Source: an uncultured Collinsella sp. (lineage in GTDB: Bacteria; Actinomycetota; Coriobacteriia; Coriobacteriales; Coriobacteriaceae). Taken from it: DNA of 13,191 nucleotides. The notes beneath the pieces were generated by a model. That model worked only from the letters and a program-made list of their open reading frames with translations, was not told the DNA's origin and searched no databases. This document shows, piece after piece, positions 2,608 through 12,218 of the stretch (the stretch's first letter is position 1; each line of letters begins with the position of its first letter). Where the stretch lies: the NCBI GenBank assembly GCA_900555355.1, contig USKV01000017.1:1-13191 (forward strand), given 5' to 3'. A program made the translations under genes and the position numbers.

Positions 2608-4068
2608 TTAGAAACCCTGACCGTAGCCCTGACCCTGGCCCTGCTGGCCCAGCAGCTCCTCCAGATACTGGCGCAGCTGCTCATCGGTAATACCGCCGTT
2701 GCCGGTGTCGGTCGCGCTATCGTCCTGCTGCTGGTTCTGCAGCTCCTCGTCAGAGCCTAGCTCGACGGTGACCTTCTTCTCTTCCTTACCGCGCATGAGC
2801 GTGATCTCGACCTTCTCGCCCACCTCGTGGCTGCGCAGCGCGATGATTAGGCCATCGGCGCTCGTAATCTCGTCGTCGCCCAGCTTGGTAATGACATCAC
2901 CCTCCTGGATGCCGGCCTTGGCTGCAGGACCGTCCTCGACAACGCTCGCCACATACGCGCCGCTATCGGTACTCAGCTTGTTGGTGCGGGCGTTAAGCGC
3001 ATTGACGCTCGAGAGCGTGGCGCCCAGGTACGGGTGCACCGGCGTCTTACCGTCGATGATCTGGTCGGCAATGTCCTTGGCGTAGTTAACGGGAATAGCA
3101 AAGCCCACGCCCGAGCTGGAGCCCGAGTAGCTCTCGATAAGCGAGTTGATGCCCACGAGCTCGCCGTTATCGTTAACGAGCGCGCCGCCGGAGTTGCCCG
3201 GGTTGATGGCGGCATCGGTCTGGATCATGTTGGCGTAGATGGTGTTGCCGCTGGTAGAGCTCATGGCCGTGGAGCGATAGAGCGCCGAGACAATACCCGT
3301 GGAGACAGACTGCTCGTTGCCGAACGGCGAACCGATCGCCATGACCCACTCGCCCACGTTGAGCTTGGAGGAGTCACCGATCTCGATCGGCGTGAGCTTG
3401 GAGGCGTCGGCGTCCTTGAGCTTGATGACGGCCAGGTCGCTTGAGGCGTCGTTGCCCACGAACTCGGCCTCATAGGTGGTGCCGTCGTCCATGGTCACCA
3501 CATACTGGTCATAGCCATCGACCACGTGGTTGTTGGTGAGGATGTGGCCCTCGGTATCGAGCACCACGCCCGAACCGACGCTGCCCGAGCTGTCCGACTC
3601 GTCGGCAGACTGCGAAAGCGAGCCATTCTGGCTGCCGCTCGAAGTGGCGGTGATGGAAACGACGGAAGGCAGGGCCTTGGCAGAAACGGCCTCGGCCAGC
3701 GTGGTGTCCTCGGAGTCGATGGTGATCTTTTGCGTCGATGAACCCGAAGCACCCGCCGTCACTGCATTCTTTCCGCCGCCAATGTTGAGCGTGCCGCTCA
3801 TAATGAGCGCGATGACCAGCAGGGCTCCGCAGGCACAGCCGGCGAGCGCTGTAATGAAAATCGGCAGCTTTTTGGTCTTGGTCTTGACCACTGTGTGCTT
3901 GTTTACAACCTGCTGGCCGCCCAACGGCTTGCCGGTCTGCGTGTCGTAGGCCTGCACGTAGGGAATGTTGCCGTCGGCAGGCGTCGACTCCACCTGCACG
4001 CGCGGTTGCTGCTGAGTCTCGCCGGCGTGGCCCGCATCCTGGGGACGCTGGGAATCGTTCTCGCTCAT
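2608..4068 (-). CDS. htrA: Membrane-anchored HtrA/Deg-type serine protease with PDZ domain
   Basis: Trypsin-like quality-control protease expected to act outside the membrane on misfolded or damaged exported proteins. The 486-aa product has a hydrophilic, Gln-rich cytoplasmic N-terminus (1-66), one membrane segment (about 68-92), a Ser/Gly linker, a protease domain (about 120-335) and one PDZ domain (about 345-440). The catalytic triad is visible: His181 in TNNHVVDG, Asp211 in SSDLAVIKL and Ser293 in GNSGGALV. The tail is acidic, then Gln/Gly-rich (GQQGQGQGYGQGF). I chose the ATG at 4068 because AAAGGAT lies about 7 nt upstream; an in-frame ATG at 4107 adds 13 residues without a good ribosome site. 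It is a single gene with its own terminator. The topology matches the actinobacterial PepD/HtrA and Firmicute HtrA groups; the precise subfamily is not certain. Confidence 0.93.
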   Translation of the reverse strand: MSENDSQRPQDAGHAGETQQQPRVQVESTPADGNIPYVQAYDTQTGKPLGGQQVVNKHTVVKTKTKKLPIFITALAGCACGALLVIALIMSGTLNIGGGKNAVTAGASGSSTQKITIDSEDTTLAEAVSAKALPSVVSITATSSGSQNGSLSQSADESDSSGSVGSGVVLDTEGHILTNNHVVDGYDQYVVTMDDGTTYEAEFVGNDASSDLAVIKLKDADASKLTPIEIGDSSKLNVGEWVMAIGSPFGNEQSVSTGIVSALYRSTAMSSTSGNTIYANMIQTDAAINPGNSGGALVNDNGELVGINSLIESYSGSSSGVGFAIPVNYAKDIADQIIDGKTPVHPYLGATLSSVNALNARTNKLSTDSGAYVASVVEDGPAAKAGIQEGDVITKLGDDEITSADGLIIALRSHEVGEKVEITLMRGKEEKKVTVELGSDEELQNQQQDDSATDTGNGGITDEQLRQYLEELLGQQGQGQGYGQGF

Positions 4069-4097
4069 GGCTGCGATCCTTTCGTCTAATAACCAAA

Positions 4098-4121
4098 GGC
4101 CCGCCAAACATGTGGCGGGCC
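4098..4121. other. 8-bp GC-rich hairpin in the htrA leader
   Basis: GGCCCGCC at 4098-4105 pairs perfectly with GGCGGGCC at 4114-4121 around an 8-nt loop. On the minus strand it lies about 30 nt before the htrA start and is followed by a weak T-rich stretch (TTTGGTTATT). It could be a second, weaker terminator for upstream transcription or a leader structure affecting htrA. Role not established. Confidence 0.5.
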
Positions 4122-4274: not shown

Positions 4275-4937
4275 CTAGTCCTTAAACAGATAGCCCACGC
4301 CGCGGACGGTGGTAATGTGCGCCGCGATCTGCGGGCCCACCTTGGAGCGGATGCGTCGAATATGCACGTCGACGGTGCGCGTGCCGCCGCAGTACTCGAA
4401 GCCCCACACGCGGTGCAGCAGTACCTCGCGGCTGTAGGCACGGTTGGGATGCGTCGCCAAAAAGCTCAGCAGCGAGTACTCCATCAGCGTCAGGTCGATG
4501 GGCTCGTTATCGAGTGTCACCTGGTAGGTGGCCAGGTTAATCTCGAGGTTATCGATGTTGAGCACATCGTCGGCGGCGACGGTCTCCTCCTCGCCCATCA
4601 GGCGCTGTGCACGAGCCTTAAGCTCGTTGGGCGTCGCCGTGGGGCATACAAAGTCGGCATGCGCGTGATTCGGCAGGCGCAAGGTACCGAGCGCCTCGTC
4701 GTCGACGATCACCAACATGGGGACGCCGCCGCGATCGTCAAGCCACTTGGCAATCTGATCGATGCGGTCGCTGCGGATGCCATCGGAATCGAGGATCAGC
4801 AGGTCAAAGTCGTGCGCCGCAGTCGGCGAATCGGGGGTGGCCAGGCTCACCTCGACACCCAGGGTGGTCGTCAAGCTGCGGGCAAACTCGTGGAAGCGCG
4901 TCGTGCGCGCCATGAACAGGGCACTCTTTTCGGACAT
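4275..4937 (-). CDS. glnR: GlnR-like atypical OmpR-family response regulator
   Basis: Probable nitrogen-response transcription factor. The 220-aa protein has a degenerate receiver domain (about 8-115) and an OmpR/PhoB winged helix (about 125-218) ending in TTVRGVGYLF. The DNA-binding part carries VWGFEYCGGTRTVDVHIRR, very like actinobacterial GlnR as I remember it. In the receiver, the Asp of FDLLILD sits at position 50, as in GlnR. The usual N-terminal acidic pair is absent, and the switch Lys-Pro is replaced (ADFVCPTATP), so phosphorelay control is doubtful. No histidine kinase gene is nearby. The start at 4937 has GGAGG about 7 nt upstream; a longer frame from 5021 would overlap the upstream gene. 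It lies 50 bp after the synthetase-like gene, a context that supports nitrogen control. Alternative: a general orphan OmpR-type regulator. Confidence 0.8.
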   Translation of the reverse strand: MSEKSALFMARTTRFHEFARSLTTTLGVEVSLATPDSPTAAHDFDLLILDSDGIRSDRIDQIAKWLDDRGGVPMLVIVDDEALGTLRLPNHAHADFVCPTATPNELKARAQRLMGEEETVAADDVLNIDNLEINLATYQVTLDNEPIDLTLMEYSLLSFLATHPNRAYSREVLLHRVWGFEYCGGTRTVDVHIRRIRSKVGPQIAAHITTVRGVGYLFKD

Positions 4938-4987: not shown

Positions 4988-6325
4988 TTAGGAGTTCGCC
5001 AGGTAGTGCTTGATCTCCCACTCGGTGATCGTAGACTCAAACTTATGCCACTCGTCGCGCTTCTTTTTGAGGAAGAAGCTGTGGATATGCTCGCCGAGGG
5101 CATCCTTCATAAACTGCGAGTCCTCAAACACGTCGAGCGCCTCTTTGAGCGAACGCGGCAGCGGCGTGTAGCCGGCCTCGACCATCTGGCGGTCGGTAAG
5201 CTTGAGCGTCTCGGCCGTTGCCTCGGGCGGGAGCTCCAGCTTGCGCTCGATGCCGTCCAGACCAGCCGCCAGCGTGACGGCGTTGACCAGATACGGGTTG
5301 GCCATGGGATCGGGACTGCGCAGCTCGATGCGCGTGGACAGCTGCTTGCCGGGCTTGTAGACCGGGATGCGGACCATACTCGCGCGGTTGCGCAGGCCCC
5401 ACGTGGCGTACTGCGGCACGGAGTCGCCGCCCGTGGTGATGCGCTTGTACGAGTTGACCGTGGGGTTGGTGATGGCGCTAATCTCGCGGGCATGCGCCAG
5501 GATGCCGGCCATGTAGTGTTTGGCGACGTCGGAGAGGTGGTACTTCTCGTCGTCCTCGCCCCAAAAGACGTTGTTGCCGTCGTGGTCGAACAGCGACTGG
5601 CACAGGAACATAGCGCTGCCATCCTCGCCCGCCAGCGGCTTGGGCATAAAGGAGGCGTGGCAACCGCTCTCGTAGGCCTGCTGCTTAATGATGAGTTTGG
5701 CCGTGGTGATGGCGTCGGACATGCTCAGGGCCTCGGCGTGGCGCAGGCTCATGCCGTGCTGCGAGCGGCCGGCGGCGTGGAAGGTGTACTCCACGGGCAC
5801 GGACATCTTCTCGAGCGTGAGGACCGTGTTGCGGCGCAGGTCGCGAGCGGCATCGCTCACCGAAAGATCGAAGTAGCCCACGTTGTCGAGCGGCTCGGGG
5901 GTGTGCTCGTCGGGGAAGTAGTAATACTCCAGCTCAGCGCCCACGTTGAGCAGATAGCCGGCCTTCTCGGCCTTGTAGAACATGCGGCGCAGGGCATCGC
6001 GCGGGTCGCCGGCAAACGGCTTGCGATCGGGAGTGCACACGTCACAGAACACGCGGGCGACGCCGTTGTGACTCGGACGCCACGGCAGAATCTGAAAGGT
6101 CGAAGCATCGGGAAACGCGAGCATGTCGGCTTCCTCGGGCGTGGCAAAGCCCTCGATGGCCGAGCCGTCAAAGCCAATACCCTCCTCAAAAGCGACCTCG
6201 AGGTCCTCGGGGCTAATGGCAAAGTTCTTGAGGCGGCCGAGAATGTCGACAAACCACAGACGCACAAAGCGGATGTCACGCTGCTCTACGGAGCGGAGTA
6301 CGTAATCGATGTTCTGCTGGTTCAT
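4988..6325 (-). CDS. glnA: Glutamine synthetase family protein (type I-alpha-like, divergent active site)
   Basis: The family makes glutamine from glutamate, ammonia and ATP. The 445-aa protein aligns over its whole length with Bacillus-type GS (about 444 aa) and lacks the adenylylation loop of beta-type enzymes. Preserved: GFDGSAIEGF (51-60), GAELEYYYF with Glu131 and Glu133, SFMPKPL, NPTVNSYKR, LRNRASMVRIP, and RIELRSPDPMANPYL with Glu334 and Arg336. Changed: the HHEVAPGQHE motif reads FHAAGRSQHG, so two metal-ligand glutamates become Ala184 and Gly191. In GSGMH the metal-ligand His becomes Phe240. The flap motif GYEAP is replaced by GGDSV. The start ATG has AAAGGGGAG upstream. Catalytic competence as a glutamine synthetase is therefore uncertain; it may be a paralogue with another ligand or a regulatory role. 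It precedes glnR and is probably co-transcribed with it. Confidence 0.85.
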   Translation of the reverse strand: MNQQNIDYVLRSVEQRDIRFVRLWFVDILGRLKNFAISPEDLEVAFEEGIGFDGSAIEGFATPEEADMLAFPDASTFQILPWRPSHNGVARVFCDVCTPDRKPFAGDPRDALRRMFYKAEKAGYLLNVGAELEYYYFPDEHTPEPLDNVGYFDLSVSDAARDLRRNTVLTLEKMSVPVEYTFHAAGRSQHGMSLRHAEALSMSDAITTAKLIIKQQAYESGCHASFMPKPLAGEDGSAMFLCQSLFDHDGNNVFWGEDDEKYHLSDVAKHYMAGILAHAREISAITNPTVNSYKRITTGGDSVPQYATWGLRNRASMVRIPVYKPGKQLSTRIELRSPDPMANPYLVNAVTLAAGLDGIERKLELPPEATAETLKLTDRQMVEAGYTPLPRSLKEALDVFEDSQFMKDALGEHIHSFFLKKKRDEWHKFESTITEWEIKHYLANS

Positions 6326-6360: not shown

Positions 6361-6406
6361 TCTATATCGCAGATACTATCGCAGAAAAATGTTTCCGCAG
6401 GGTTAA
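6361..6406 (-). promoter_or_regulatory. GlnR-box-like site and promoter region of the GS-like gene
   Basis: Minus-strand TTAAC-CCTGCG-GAAAC (6391-6406) fits the actinobacterial GlnR consensus gTnAc-n6-GaAAc except at the first base. It lies 66-81 bp before the start codon. Downstream are -10-like sequences (TAGTAT at 6373-6378, TATAGA at 6361-6366) with no good -35, as expected for an activator-dependent promoter. A 9-bp direct repeat TATCGCAGA (6365-6373 and 6377-6385) overlaps the -10 area. Motif match only. Confidence 0.5.
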
Positions 6407-6459: not shown

Positions 6460-7482
6460 TTAGCGCGAGGTCGAGGCGCGGTGTTCGATGCGGCCGGGGA
6501 TCTCGATGCGTTTGGGCGCCAGCTTTGCGGCCTCGCCCACGGTGGTGGTAACGACGTCGATGCGCTCGGAAAGGCGCTCGACTACGCGCTCGGCAATGGT
6601 GAGGGTGTCCTGCGCGGCCGTGGTGACGCCGCCAAAGAGCACATGGTTCCAGGGGTAGTCGTCAAACGTCGCGATCTTGAGCCCCGCCGGCAGCGAGGGA
6701 CCAAGCTGCGCCAGCGCCTCGGTCAGACGCAGGAAAACCAGGCCGTTGACGGCGATAAGGCCGAGCCTTTTGCCCGCGTAGTCGCGGATGGTCTTGTCCA
6801 AACGGCCAACGCCCGTGGCGCCACCGTCGGCCAGGGTGACGACCTCGCCCGCAAGGCCGCGGCGCGAAAGCTCGTCGGCAAAGGCCTCGGCGCGCTCTCG
6901 ACGCACGGGGCTATCGTCGCTTGCCTCGGTGAGCAGGCACAGACGCTCGCTGCCCGCAGCTGCCAAGGCGTCTACCAAGCCGGCGACCAGCTCACGGTTG
7001 TTAGATGTCACCAGATCGACACCGCCGTCGGCAACGTCGCGGTCGAGCAGCACGACGGGCAGACGTCCCGCTGCCGCGGCGATCGCCTCGTCATTGCCTC
7101 CGCAGGTGTTGACGACCAGGCCGTCCACGCCGGCATCGATAAGTCTGGTGAGCGACTCCGCTTCCTTAGCGGGGTCGTTGCCGCTAATGGCCGTCATGAG
7201 CGAGCAGCCGCGCGCCGCGGCGCTGGCGGAAAGGCCCTCGAGCATGGCGCTCGAGAATGGGTTGGCGATGTCGGCCAAGATCACGCCGATGAGATTGGTG
7301 CGCGAGCTGCGCAGATTGCGCGCAGCGGCACGCGGGCGATAGCCGGTGCGCTCGATGACCTCGGCAATGCGGGCACGGGTCTCCTCGGTCATTTGCCCGG
7401 GGCGGTTGTTGAGATAGCGCGAGACCGTGGCCGGACTCACGCCCGCCTCGGCGGCAATGTCCTTGATTCTCATCTGCGCCAT
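6460..7482 (-). CDS. LacI-family transcriptional regulator
   Basis: Sugar- or metabolite-responsive DNA-binding repressor, cytoplasmic. The 340-aa protein starts with a LacI helix-turn-helix (residues 4-26, IKDIAAEAGVSPATVSRYLN) and hinge helix (about 50-60). A periplasmic-binding-protein-like effector domain follows (ANPFSSAMLEGL, DGLVVNTCGG, VVLLDRDVADGGVDLVTSNN, ATFDDYPWNHVLFGGVTT). The start at 7482 has GGGG about 6 nt upstream; a longer frame from 7530 lacks a good site. The effector cannot be read from the sequence, and no transport or catabolic genes stand beside it, so its targets are probably elsewhere. It follows the GntR gene in the same direction with a 124-bp gap, so co-transcription is possible but not shown. 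Confidence 0.92.
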   Translation of the reverse strand: MAQMRIKDIAAEAGVSPATVSRYLNNRPGQMTEETRARIAEVIERTGYRPRAAARNLRSSRTNLIGVILADIANPFSSAMLEGLSASAAARGCSLMTAISGNDPAKEAESLTRLIDAGVDGLVVNTCGGNDEAIAAAAGRLPVVLLDRDVADGGVDLVTSNNRELVAGLVDALAAAGSERLCLLTEASDDSPVRRERAEAFADELSRRGLAGEVVTLADGGATGVGRLDKTIRDYAGKRLGLIAVNGLVFLRLTEALAQLGPSLPAGLKIATFDDYPWNHVLFGGVTTAAQDTLTIAERVVERLSERIDVVTTTVGEAAKLAPKRIEIPGRIEHRASTSR

Positions 7483-7550
7483 AGCGCACCCCGTTTCCCA
7501 TTTGTCGGCAGTCTGAGCCATTTTAGGCATGTTTTAAAAATCTCGGTTGC

Positions 7551-8783: not shown

Positions 8784-8800
8784 GAGCAAAGGTGGCTCAC

Positions 8801-9892
8801 ATGCAAACAAACCCTTTTAAGCCCACAGCAGGTAAAACACCTCCCACGATTATCGGCCGCGAAGATGTACTCGAAGAATTCAATGAAGGCCTCATCAACG
8901 GGCCTGGTGCCCCGGGGCGCCTAATGCGCATAGCCGGCGTCCGTGGAACGGGCAAGACGGTCCTCCTTGACGAGTGCTCACGTTTGGCGCAAAGCCGTGG
9001 CTGGACGGTCATAAAAGAGGTCGCAACCGAGGGACTTTGCCAGCGCATTCTCGAACAGCTGCAGCCCAAATTCCAGGCCAAACACGCCAGATTTGAGCCC
9101 ACCGTAGCTGGCATATCCATCGGCAGCATAGACATTGAGCGAATCGGTCCATCGCTACGCGACGCCATGAGACAGACAATATCCAAGAATGAAAATGGCC
9201 TGCTCATCACTCTCGACGAGGTTCAAGACGCAGAGCTCGATGAGGTCCGAACGCTCTCCATTGCGATTCAGCAGGTTATCGGCGAAGACCTTGATATCGC
9301 CTTTGTTTTTGCGGGGCTGCCTTCGATGATTGAAAGCATCATCAACGGAAAGACACTTACGTTTTTGCGCCGTGCCCTCCCCTTTGACCTGAAGGCTGTG
9401 GCAGTAACCGAAGTGTCGTACTCCCTCGAGGAAACCATTGAAGCGTCTGGCATGGAGTTGCAGCCAGGTATTGCCGGCCAACTTGCCGAGGCAACGCAAG
9501 GTTATCCTTTCATGATCCAACTCGTTGGATACTACGCATGGCAGTTGGCAAGACGCGCACATACACCGATTATTGGAGAAGAAGAAGCCGAGCGCGGCAT
9601 TGCAACGGCACGCGAACGCTTCTGTGCCATGGTGATTGAGCCCGCGCTACAGCGCATTCCGCCCACGTGCATCGCTTATCTGCTGAGCATGGCATCTTTG
9701 GGGCAGACGAGCTCGACCAGCATGGTTGCCGATGCCCTAAACAAAACGCCTCAACAGGTGAGTTCCGTCCGCAGCCGCCTGTTAAGAGAATCGATTATCG
9801 AGGCTCCCTCGTACGGCAAGGTCTCATTTGCCATCCCCTACATGCGCGACTACCTCTACGAGCACAAAGCCGAACTGGAAGTTGAACTGTAG
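8801..9892 (+). CDS. Orphan AAA/STAND-type ATP-binding protein with C-terminal winged helix
   Basis: 363-aa P-loop ATPase of the archaeal-ATPase/AAA_16 type; function unknown. It has an N-terminal IIGREDVLEEF box (17-27), a Walker A GVRGTGKT (46-53, Lys52), a Walker B LLITLDEVQD (134-143, Asp139-Glu140), a sensor-1-like DIAFVFAGLPSM (165-176) and an ATQGYPFMIQLVGYYAW sensor-2/lid region (231-247). The C-terminal helical part resembles a winged helix (about 285-345, with TPQQVSSVRSRLLRESII). The start ATG at 8801 has AAAGGTGG in good position; an in-frame GTG at 8792 is less well placed. It is the only intact plus-strand gene here, flanked by tandem repeats and palindromes in an accessory stretch. 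No partner enzyme is adjacent. A role in defence or mobile-element biology is possible but not shown. Confidence 0.85.
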   Translation: MQTNPFKPTAGKTPPTIIGREDVLEEFNEGLINGPGAPGRLMRIAGVRGTGKTVLLDECSRLAQSRGWTVIKEVATEGLCQRILEQLQPKFQAKHARFEPTVAGISIGSIDIERIGPSLRDAMRQTISKNENGLLITLDEVQDAELDEVRTLSIAIQQVIGEDLDIAFVFAGLPSMIESIINGKTLTFLRRALPFDLKAVAVTEVSYSLEETIEASGMELQPGIAGQLAEATQGYPFMIQLVGYYAWQLARRAHTPIIGEEEAERGIATARERFCAMVIEPALQRIPPTCIAYLLSMASLGQTSSTSMVADALNKTPQQVSSVRSRLLRESIIEAPSYGKVSFAIPYMRDYLYEHKAELEVEL

Positions 9893-10065: not shown

Positions 10066-10445
10066 AGCCCCGAGCTCGTATTGAACTGCATCCCAATTCT
10101 TGGACGGGCGCCGATGCCCTGATCTCTGCCATGTCGAGGTGCGAGATCAAATCCTTGGCGCGCTCGCCGGAGTGGTATGCCTTGTTCGGCGCCACCTTCC
10201 TGTAGAGCTTCTTGAGCTTCGTCTTCCCCTTGTTGCCCGGCGGCATCTCCGTCTCAGGTGGCAGCCCTAGGAAGGACAGGACGCCGGGCAGGTCGCACAG
10301 CATCACGTCCTCGATGTCGGCCTTGGCCGCCAGGTCGACGACTCTCTGCGCTGTCGGCGAGATGTTCGGGGTGCTGCTACCGCCCGCTGGTTCGGAAGCT
10401 GGCGGGCAGTAGCGGCAGTAGCGGTGTGGCTCGATAGGCCCGAAT
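10066..10445 (-). pseudogene. Coding remnant of unknown function downstream of the integrase
   Basis: The minus-strand frame from about 10445 looks protein-like: IEPHRYCRYCPPASEPAGG, then ISPTAQRVVDLAAKADIED, DLPGVLSFLGLPPETEM, a basic stretch GNKGKTKLKKLYRKVAPNKA and HSGERAKDLISHLDMAEI. I do not recognise the family. The frame has no start upstream because a TGA closes it near 10460, so it was probably joined to an upstream frame and is now frameshifted. Alternatively a short gene starts at the ATG at 10303 (GAGGAC upstream), overlapping the integrase-frame stop as TGATG, and reads to a stop at 9980. The residues after about 10066 run into the palindrome cluster and are unlikely to be native. 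Confidence 0.45.
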
Positions 10446-11324
10446 ATCCGTAAGGAAGGTGCTCGCTCTCATATGTGCTGATATGCCTCGCCTCGCGAAC
10501 CTTGGGATGCTTCCTGAGGTAATCCCTCAATTCGAGCCACTCTTTATGCTCATAACGCTTCGAAATCGTTTCCCCGTCGACAGTTTCCTTCACATAATGG
10601 TATGTTCGAACGCCTTCGAACTTGCCGAACCCGTTCTCGACGCTGAAGTTTCTGAACCAGCGCGAAAACCCATTCAGGTCCATGAAGTTGACTTGGGGAT
10701 GCCTGTCTTTCGTTCGTTCGAATGAGTGGACGAGCGGAGTGCCTTTGACTTGTTCCAGGCCGAAGGCTTCCATTTCGCGGGCCTGCTCCTTTTTCCAGAA
10801 TTCGAGATACGACGTCAGCGTCTCGCTTATCGAGATCCTCCGCACGCTTTTCTTGCTTTTGGGCGAGCGAACGCTTCGATCGGCCGCGAACTGCTGCTCA
10901 ATGAGGATGCTTCTGTTCTCGACGGAGACATCGGACCACGTCATCCCGAGGGCTTCTGCCCTTCTCATGTCGGTGTCGAGCATGAGCATCACGCATGTGA
11001 TGTGCGCGTCCGGTTCTCGATTGAGTAGGATGTCGAGTAGGCGAGCGGCGTGATGGTTCCTTCGCGGTTGTCGTGGAACTTTTTTGCGTACGAGCCGACG
11101 GTGTCCCTCGATTTTTGGACGTAGGTGCCGCTGTTGAGTTCTGCCTTGTAGGCTTCGAGTGCGGCGTCGACCTCTCGGCTTTTGGTGGTATGTATGGTCT
11201 GCCACGGCGAATAGCGGTATTTGCCCGTGACCGGATCCTTGCCGAGGCTGTGACGGTAGCGCCACGTGTATTTGTCGCGGCGTTGCTTCGTTCCTTTGCC
11301 TATGACGAGAGGTCGGTCGTTCAT
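10303..11324 (-). pseudogene. Tyrosine integrase, disrupted (internal deletion, frameshift, no C-terminal catalytic residues)
   Basis: Site-specific recombinase remnant. The first frame (start ATG at 11324, AAGGAA upstream) encodes the arm-site-binding domain (QRRDKYTWRYRHSLGKDPVT, TIHTTKSREVDAALEAYKAE) up to NREGTITPLAYS and then stops. From about 11060 a second frame resumes inside the catalytic domain: ARLLDILLNREPDAHITCVM, the first catalytic Arg in TDMRRAEALGMTWSDV, and the beta-hairpin Lys region SPKSKKSVRRISIS. About 100 residues of core-binding domain are missing between the two. After YHYVKETVDGETISKRYE the expected HxxR and Tyr motifs are absent. Instead comes HKEWLELRDYLRKHP and then nonsense-like sequence. 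RDYLRKHP is reminiscent of GrpB-family proteins, so a chimera is possible. It is not expected to be active. Confidence 0.8.
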
Positions 11325-11909: not shown

Positions 11910-12218
11910 CTACTCGTTCCACTGGTGCTTTTTCATGTCGACGCAGCCGTTGTCTCGGAAGGCGACTCCTTCCTCCGTCAGTAGTGCTCGCTGGTCGGGG
12001 AAGTTTGGCGCGAGGCGTCCCGCGTGGTTGACGACGCGGTGGCAGGGATAATCGCCGTAGCGATCCGCCTCGCTCAGCACCGCTCCGACCAGGCGAGAGT
12101 TTTTCTCCCTGCCGATGAGGCGCGCTATCTGACCGTACGAGGCGACGCATCCCGCCGGAATCTCTGCCACGACGGAGAGAATCTCATAAACCAAATCTTC
12201 GTCCAGGACTTTTCCCAT
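11910..12218 (-). CDS. Short MGMT-type alkyltransferase-like protein with PCHRV motif
   Basis: 102-aa protein consisting only of the DNA-binding/active-site domain of O6-alkylguanine-DNA alkyltransferases. It contains IPAGCVASYGQIARLIG (helix-turn-helix), an arginine-finger-like SRLVGAVLSE with Arg42, and the active-site motif YPCHRVVNHAGRLAP with Cys59. Stand-alone proteins of this size are usually alkyltransferase-like (ATL) proteins, which carry Trp or Ala in place of the Cys and flag lesions for excision repair. Here the Cys is kept, so repair by alkyl transfer is conceivable, although the N-terminal domain of full Ada/Ogt proteins is absent. The start at 12218 has GGGAG upstream. It is a single gene separated by 174 bp from the CBS gene; that gap holds a small hairpin (12273-12289). 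Confidence 0.88.
   Translation of the reverse strand: MGKVLDEDLVYEILSVVAEIPAGCVASYGQIARLIGREKNSRLVGAVLSEADRYGDYPCHRVVNHAGRLAPNFPDQRALLTEEGVAFRDNGCVDMKKHQWNE

Follow-up and report, generated by a model that had tools for sequence, protein, structure and literature searches.

A glutamine synthetase-like protein of Collinsella without three catalytic metal ligands, a candidate nitrogen-status receptor for a nearby GlnR-like regulator

The window (the whole stretch of 13,191 nucleotides from an uncultured Collinsella sp. that was analysed) carries a glutamine synthetase (GS)-like gene, which we read as a catalytically dead type-I enzyme (GSI) that now serves the GlnR-like regulator encoded nearby as a receptor of nitrogen status. 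We give this reading an even chance. Loss of catalysis by itself is near certain from the residue comparisons. Descent and fold make the protein a GSI; its set of metal ligands is incomplete, however, and the name glutamine synthetase should not be used for its function. The initial annotation, made from the letters of the window alone, had suggested a pseudoenzyme with a sensing role. This suggestion is supported by the loss of the ligands in one clade under strong purifying selection, by the presence of a separate type-III GS (GSIII), by the linkage with the regulator, and by the GlnR-box-like repeat upstream.

Table 1. Features of the window and their coordinates.
Feature	Position	Strand	Remark
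GS-like gene	4988..6325	minus	445 aa; GSI fold (beta-grasp and catalytic domain)
Codons 182-191, FHAAGRSQHG	5753..5782	minus	n1 ligands Glu212/Glu220 replaced by Ala184/Gly191
Codons 236-240, GSAMF	5606..5620	minus	n2 ligand His269 replaced by Phe240
GlnR-like OmpR-type regulator	4275..4937	minus	220 aa from ATG 4937; longer GTG ORF to 5021
GlnR-box-like direct repeat, TTAAC-n6-GAAAC	6391..6406	minus	at about -81 to -66 relative to the GS-like start codon
HtrA/DegP-type serine protease	2608..4107	minus	next downstream of the regulator
LacI-family gene	6460..7530	minus	between the GntR-family gene and the GS-like gene
AAA ATPase gene	8792..9892
Tyrosine-integrase (PF00589) frame	10303..11324	minus	split into overlapping 10303-11265 and 10989-11324
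O6-methylguanine-methyltransferase-like protein	11910..12218	minus	102 aa; PCHRVV motif

The open reading frame of the GS-like gene has no internal stop. Its product matched both Pfam GSI domains, Gln-synt_N (96.4 bits, cut-off 33.4) and Gln-synt_C (336.5 bits, cut-off 24), and stayed under the curated cut-off of the NCBIfam GlnA equivalog TIGR00653 (398.2 vs 429.15 bits). In phmmer the best solved relative was 8s59 (E 6.5e-118), a GSI from Methanosarcina mazei. An AlphaFold2 model from a 58-row alignment (pLDDT 88.7, pTM 0.91) had the same entry as its top PDB match, with a TM of 0.92.

Several other features of the window were observed. The HtrA/DegP-type gene also follows the regulator in many Collinsella-family and Atopobiaceae-like loci; no functional link is claimed. 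The arrangement with the LacI-family gene is that of C. aerofaciens-type loci. The relative L105 has the GntR-family gene immediately before the GS-like gene, which points to a gain or loss of the LacI gene at this place. The integrase frame is apparently frameshifted, and together with the AAA ATPase gene it may be a decayed mobile insertion. In the short methyltransferase-like protein only the DNA-binding domain was matched.

Metal ligands and the supply of glutamine

The metal-ligand set of GSI is E129, E131, E212, E220, H269, and E357 (Salmonella numbering; positions placed by motif). The window protein lacks three of these, with Ala184, Gly191, and Phe240 at Glu212, Glu220, and His269, respectively. 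In the phmmer alignment SHHEVAPSQHE and GSGMH of M. mazei GS stand opposite TFHAAGRSQHG and GSAMF of the window. This alignment is ungapped from about query residue 142 to 246 and spans all three replaced positions, so neighbouring residues cannot stand in for the lost ligands, and a supply of metal residues from shifted positions is ruled out. Glu131, Glu133, Glu334, and Arg336 of the window protein are retained. The initial annotation had named the three replacements, the four retained residues, and the fold, and all of these hold in the alignment and in the model.

Residues were read in 162 loci, in four groups: 32 Collinsella-family, 50 Atopobiaceae-like, 50 Eggerthellaceae-like, and 30 loci from other orders of the class. 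The first three groups represent 32 of 56, 50 of 60, and 50 of 58 genomes with a match, and the last one is the best-scoring 30 loci rather than a random draw. In all 164 loci were taken; L002, a GSIII locus, yielded no GSI, and L001 (the same gene as L036) stands outside the group counts. The counts also leave out the GSI match of G263 and extra copies in G299, G197, G302, G303, and G300. The names of two groups are inferred from their closest GS records, which were those of named Atopobiaceae and Olsenella for one and that of Slackia isoflavoniconvertens (77%) for the other. Of 7985 matches in a protein search, the 120 listed were each given as 100% identical to the query along its length; the distribution counts make no use of them. 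The Atopobiaceae-like genome G299 showed three GS-like matches, two adjacent (C1:806518-808742) and one partial (C16:1137-2117), a duplication or an assembly effect.

E212, E220, and H269 were each present in 0/32 Collinsella-family and 0/50 Atopobiaceae-like loci (one of the latter has Asp at 212), which extends the replacements seen in the window to 82/82 of the sequences read from these two families. Eggerthellaceae-like loci kept the three residues in 50/50, 49/50, and 50/50 cases, respectively, and loci from other orders kept each in 30/30. The comparison across Coriobacteriia proposed in the initial annotation shows the ligands absent from the sequences read in these two families and almost always kept in the other groups.

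The 36 rows of these two families formed one clade in a FastTree of the 58 sequences (support 0.94), and the clade persisted with the active-site stretches removed (0.83). The other 22 rows (12 Eggerthellaceae-like and 10 canonical) served as reference. Conservation in 21 or more of the 22 reference rows held for 124 positions, of which 89 are retained in at least 34 of the 36 GS-like rows. Four are gone in 36/36, namely His182, Glu184, Glu191, and His240 (reference residues in window numbering). Three of the four are the metal ligands, and the other is the leading His of HHE, which is replaced by Phe or Tyr.

The flap motif, also given as changed in the initial annotation, divides the two families. 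At the flap-Glu column, located from the GYEAP motif, Glu was found in 1/14 Collinsella-family rows, where the flap is altered and variable in length. The same column held Glu in 16/22 Atopobiaceae-like rows, and an altered flap is therefore not a trait of the whole clade. Separately, seven Eggerthellaceae-like copies (L089, L104, L145, L146, L150, L156, and L164) have changed flap residues with E212 and H269 kept, and L145 also lacks E220; these copies are possible intermediates toward the loss of catalysis.

Glutamine can, on the domain matches, be made by a type-III enzyme. In G001, the nearest genome examined, Gln-synt_C matched two proteins. One is the GS-like protein, and the other, an open frame of 717 residues, is a GSIII (GSIII_N 265.6 bits, Gln-synt_C-ter 122.7 bits; 1.7e-187 against 3o6x) with intact HNEVAP and GSGKHNN motifs. 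The search for a second canonical glnA suggested in the initial annotation, run on G001, returned no second GSI there and this GSIII instead. Counted from the table of matches, GSIII_N occurs in 235/296 genomes of the class, 235/239 within the order and 0/57 outside it; G171, G201, G271, and G282 are the genomes of the order that showed no match. The simplest order of events would be that the order gained GSIII and that two families then let their GSI lose catalysis.

Linkage to the GlnR-like regulator and the upstream repeat

The top PDB matches of the regulator, searched as a 16-row profile, were 8hig (4.9e-40) and 8hih (1.3e-39), which by their titles are GlnR of Saccharopolyspora erythraea and M. 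tuberculosis. The next family, RegX3 and MtrA, followed at about 4e-27 (best 3.7e-27). The DNA-binding domain of the regulator is 46% identical to that of S. erythraea GlnR. The Pfam domain GlnR_1st stayed under its cut-off (22.4 vs 27 bits), and the protein is therefore termed GlnR-like. It is an OmpR-type protein with nothing beyond the winged helix and with a receiver half of low conservation. A phosphorylatable receiver has an N-terminal acidic pair and a beta-5 Lys, and both seem to be missing from this one.

The regulator gene follows the GS-like gene in 32/32 Collinsella-family loci and the GSI gene in 50/50 Eggerthellaceae-like loci (in L100 only partly, at a contig end). In other orders it adjoins the GSI gene in 14/30 loci. 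Among Atopobiaceae-like genomes an orthologue was found in 60/61, the same 60 that carry the GS-like gene. It lies downstream on the same strand, 64-9136 bases away, in 55/60, with gaps of 64-222 bases (n = 8), 1.9-5.8 kb (n = 46), and 9.1 kb (n = 1). In G084 it lies 1.4 kb upstream. G165, G134, and G300 have the two genes on separate contigs, and in each the GS-like gene is close to an end of its contig. Separate contigs carry them in G096 too, but there both lie away from the ends, so they are truly unlinked, yet both are retained.

The gene after the GS-like gene in the 50 Atopobiaceae-like loci was a transporter gene in 37, the regulator in 8, and neither in 5 (short flanks). In L171 the transporter is of the amino-acid ABC type by its Pfam domains SBP_bac_3 and BPD_transp_1. 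Nine loci extend from the GS-like gene across a transporter to the regulator (L169-L171 and L245-L250, partly picked for the reading of gene order), and in 9/9 the order was GS-like gene, transporter, GlnQ-like ATPase, and regulator, with HtrA next in seven. An extra solute-binding-protein match was observed between the GS-like and the binding-protein/permease genes of L133, L139, L144, L245, L246, and L169, so the transporter content between the two genes varies in this family.

Joint presence and absence was tested in 20 chosen genomes. Ten of them (G090, G223, G231, G232, G238, G242, G245, G273, G118, and G263), all from the order and all with GSIII, have no orthologous GS-like gene; G118 has only a 41% relative and G263 only a weaker GSI hit. 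A regulator orthologue was found in 0/10, the best hits being at paralogue level (E 8.6e-25 to 1.0e-33), with none in G245. The nine tested genomes with a GSI orthologue showed a regulator orthologue in 9/9 (E no higher than 1.8e-64). The remaining genome, G282, carries GSI but neither GSIII nor the regulator. Other members of the genera of G090, G118, and G242 do have GSI, so these three look like separate losses. Since the two genes usually lie close together, a single deletion or a gap in a contig or assembly can explain part of the joint loss. The pairing of GS-like gene and regulator is strongly suggested.

Upstream of the GS-like gene lies the repeat TTAACCCTGCGGAAAC, whose TTAAC variant is common to the window and its close kin. 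GlnR boxes are given in Table 2 of PMC10704036 as t/gTAAC-n6-Gc/aAAC for M. smegmatis and gTnAc-n6-GaAAc for S. coelicolor, and the window repeat fits the M. smegmatis form. The direct repeat G(A/T)AAC-n6-G(A/T)AAC was found upstream in 18/21 Collinsella-family, 29/50 Atopobiaceae-like, 14/50 Eggerthellaceae-like, and 22/30 other-order loci; with 50 shuffles for each group, the means lay between 0 and 0.02. The pattern was picked after inspection of Collinsella-family promoters, so the count for that family is partly circular and the other counts are not. The start codons that define the upstream regions were taken from the alignment, with a possible error of a few codons. A longer pattern from the same family (with TRTG added) occurred once per genome in 16/23 Collinsella-family genomes, and in all 16 it stood immediately before the GS-like gene. 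Seven genomes, G001 included, did not have it, and its reversed form gave 0 matches in the 23. The repeat, here and upstream in many related loci, is a putative site for the GlnR-like regulator. The presence of the strict box in only 14/50 Eggerthellaceae-like and 29/50 Atopobiaceae-like loci counts against the receptor reading, as does the variant form in the window and its close kin. GSIII was considered as a further target and rejected: the box stood upstream in 1/18 regions (20 loci fetched; L264 and L265 gave no ORF and were dropped), so a wider nitrogen regulon is unsupported.

The transporter gene beside so many Atopobiaceae-like copies, and the transcriptional control suggested by the box, fit an account in which the partner of the pseudoenzyme is GSIII or the amino-acid transporter. 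The pseudoenzyme would act as their decoy or regulatory subunit, and the part of the GlnR-like protein would be limited to control of its expression. We consider this unlikely. In the Collinsella family, as in the eight Atopobiaceae-like loci, the regulator is the very next gene and the transporter is missing from this place, and in the sets tested for the regulator it is kept and lost together with the GS-like gene. The ten genomes that keep GSIII and have no orthologous GS-like gene also speak against this account, although they show only that GSIII is independent. The regulatory role tied to the neighbouring GlnR, which the initial annotation found attractive, gains from the linkage, the joint presence and absence, and the upstream repeat.

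The 2-oxoglutarate site, the retained pocket, and selection

The 2-oxoglutarate (2-OG) contacts of M. mazei GlnA1 are F24, R26, S38, R87, R172', R173', and S189' (PMC11957540), and those named for M. thermolithotrophicus GS are Arg20, Arg88, Arg174, Arg175, Ser191, and Phe18 (PMC10799026). PMC10799026 adds that bulkier residues at Ala34 or a Glu at Val94 would clash, and that the bacterial GS structures compared there lack Arg88. The window equivalents are F20, R22, N34, R83, R164, R165, and T181, five identical and two changed (Ser to Asn and Ser to Thr), and the blocking positions hold Ala36 and Val89. The site was scored as complete with F/Y24, R26, R87, R172, R173, and S/T189, S38 being left out. 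It was complete in 30/32 Collinsella-family, 37/50 Atopobiaceae-like, and 50/50 Eggerthellaceae-like loci. Among other orders it was complete in 14/14 loci beside the regulator and in 1/16 (L010) elsewhere, but these loci are two paralogue types rather than 30 independent cases, and the link may rest on one ancestral difference. The site therefore tracks the regulator and not catalysis.

Some observations count against a 2-OG receptor. The site is incomplete in 13/50 Atopobiaceae-like and 2/32 Collinsella-family loci, and in the window two of its serines are replaced by Asn and Thr. PII is present in 201/296 genomes of the class, G001 included, so another 2-OG sensor exists in them. For the same reason a missing PII, considered as the cause for a new 2-OG sensor, is unsupported; some genomes with the GS-like gene (e.g., G034, G056, and G036) do lack PII.

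Arg62 is needed for glutamine feedback in Bacillus, where Arg62 and Glu304 lock glutamine (PMC9249791). The window has Thr62, as the initial annotation had read, and Arg62 occurs in 0/32 Collinsella-family and 7/50 Atopobiaceae-like loci (missing in 43/50). The flap Glu, which corresponds to Glu304, is likewise kept in just 1/14 Collinsella-family rows. Feedback by the Bacillus route is therefore ruled out for the window and for 32/32 Collinsella-family loci, and the 2-OG site is probably a better ligand candidate than glutamine bound through Arg62.

Operon neighbours need not touch, and the pseudo-GS and the GlnR-like protein may share only an operon and a glutamate-pool theme, with the former serving as a metabolite buffer or store, or in an unrelated structural task like that of lengsin. 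This account is distinctly unlikely to us, since no GSIII-bearing genome in the tested sets keeps one gene alone, not even G096 with its unlinked pair, and since among paralogues from other orders the 2-OG site accompanies the regulator.

A ligase with altered chemistry, for instance a metal-poor or one-metal gamma-glutamyl transfer that uses the glutamate pocket, would account for the retention of that pocket. In the 82 clade loci Asp50, Arg321, Arg339, Arg344, Arg355, and Glu357 are present in 82/82, Arg359 in 80/82, and Glu131 in 77/82 (Asp in four), and the flap Glu of most Atopobiaceae-like rows points the same way. Such a ligase is nevertheless improbable. Site n1 is down to one of three ligands, and Glu129 is replaced by Lys or Arg in 40/50 Atopobiaceae-like loci, which leaves n2 mostly with Glu357 alone. 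The ligases known in the GS superfamily keep their metal ligands. The initial annotation had left the chemistry between a pseudoenzyme and such a ligase; the pseudoenzyme is favoured by these results, the Bacillus glutamine route falls away, and the 2-OG site takes its place as the better candidate.

The GS-like gene is under strong purifying selection. Against C. aerofaciens-group loci the window gave dN/dS values of 0.011-0.045 in 16/16 comparisons, of which L165 and L166 repeat genomes counted as L036 and L042. The more distant Collinsella-family loci gave 0.15-0.36 in 19/20 with dS near saturation, and the twentieth, L117, was saturated. Chance or decay is ruled out by the low dN/dS and by the 89 of 124 conserved positions kept; the view that the intact frame does not reflect simple decay was correct. 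A relict in slow decay, which the loss of the active site within a GSIII-bearing order might bring to mind, is highly improbable given dN/dS far below 1, 0 internal stops in 56 Collinsella-family matches, and the positions still fixed.

Proposed mechanism and comparison with known systems

The receptor reading would run as follows. An active, 2-OG-responsive GSI may have stood beside GlnR ancestrally and informed it. Once GSIII had taken over synthesis, the catalysis of GSI could be shed and its sensing part kept. By sequence the metal centre of the present protein is broken, n1 without Glu212 and Glu220 and n2 without His269, and its fold and most of its pocket are retained under strong selection. 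2-OG, the signal of nitrogen shortage, would bind the retained inter-subunit allosteric site and change the oligomer, which in turn would bind or release the GlnR-like protein; we infer both the contact and the direction of control. The degenerate receiver of that protein appears to lack the usual phosphorylation residues, and the regulator would then control its own operon, including the amino-acid ABC transporter in many Atopobiaceae-like bacteria. A bolder form is possible and on balance doubtful: two families would have made GS a pure 2-OG receptor that directly controls an OmpR-type GlnR, the missing actinobacterial GlnR sensor, and the ancestral active GS would have done the same job before losing catalysis.

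If the receptor reading is true, the catalytic and the signalling function of glutamine synthetase have come apart naturally in human gut bacteria. If the GS-like protein is the sensor of GlnR, how actinomycete GlnR perceives nitrogen can be tested on a single promoter with a pair of small purified proteins. Metabolic models may count the GS-like gene as a working glnA. Among the matches listed, no report of a GS pseudoenzyme in Coriobacteriia was found in the open-access literature searched.

Lengsin, a vertebrate lens protein, likewise has the GS fold without GS activity; it is a eukaryotic structural protein, and the weak PDB match 2j9i of the GS-like protein is presumably this one. The Bacillus regulator is of MerR type with a C-terminal tail that enters the GS pore, whereas the Collinsella partner is of OmpR type and ends at the winged helix. 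By analogy the proposed system would work most like the Bacillus GS-GlnR circuit, yet it is not a member, excluded by the absence of Arg62 and of a GS-binding regulator tail. The likeness to GS-GlnR and GS-TnrA (PMC9249791) lies in a GSI encoded with a nitrogen regulator and in a status passed by protein contact, here proposed only. In Bacillus the GS is active and the glutamine signal passes through Arg62 and Glu304 (Salmonella Glu327), whereas in the Collinsella protein three metal ligands and Arg62 are gone.

The archaeal 2-OG-responsive GSIs (M. mazei GlnA1, PMC11957540; M. thermolithotrophicus GS, PMC10799026) share the fold, give the best structural and sequence match, and have the same 2-OG residues except for the changes from Ser to Asn and from Ser to Thr. 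They are active and are switched on by 2-OG, whereas the Collinsella protein is without three metal ligands. The OmpR-type GlnR of actinomycetes includes the closest solved relatives of the regulator, and its direct-repeat box has the 6-base spacing of the repeat upstream of the GS-like gene; its nitrogen signal and sensory kinase are called unknown in the review PMC10704036. The Collinsella system differs from it in the GlnR_1st score below cut-off and in having a GS-like candidate sensor beside the regulator gene.
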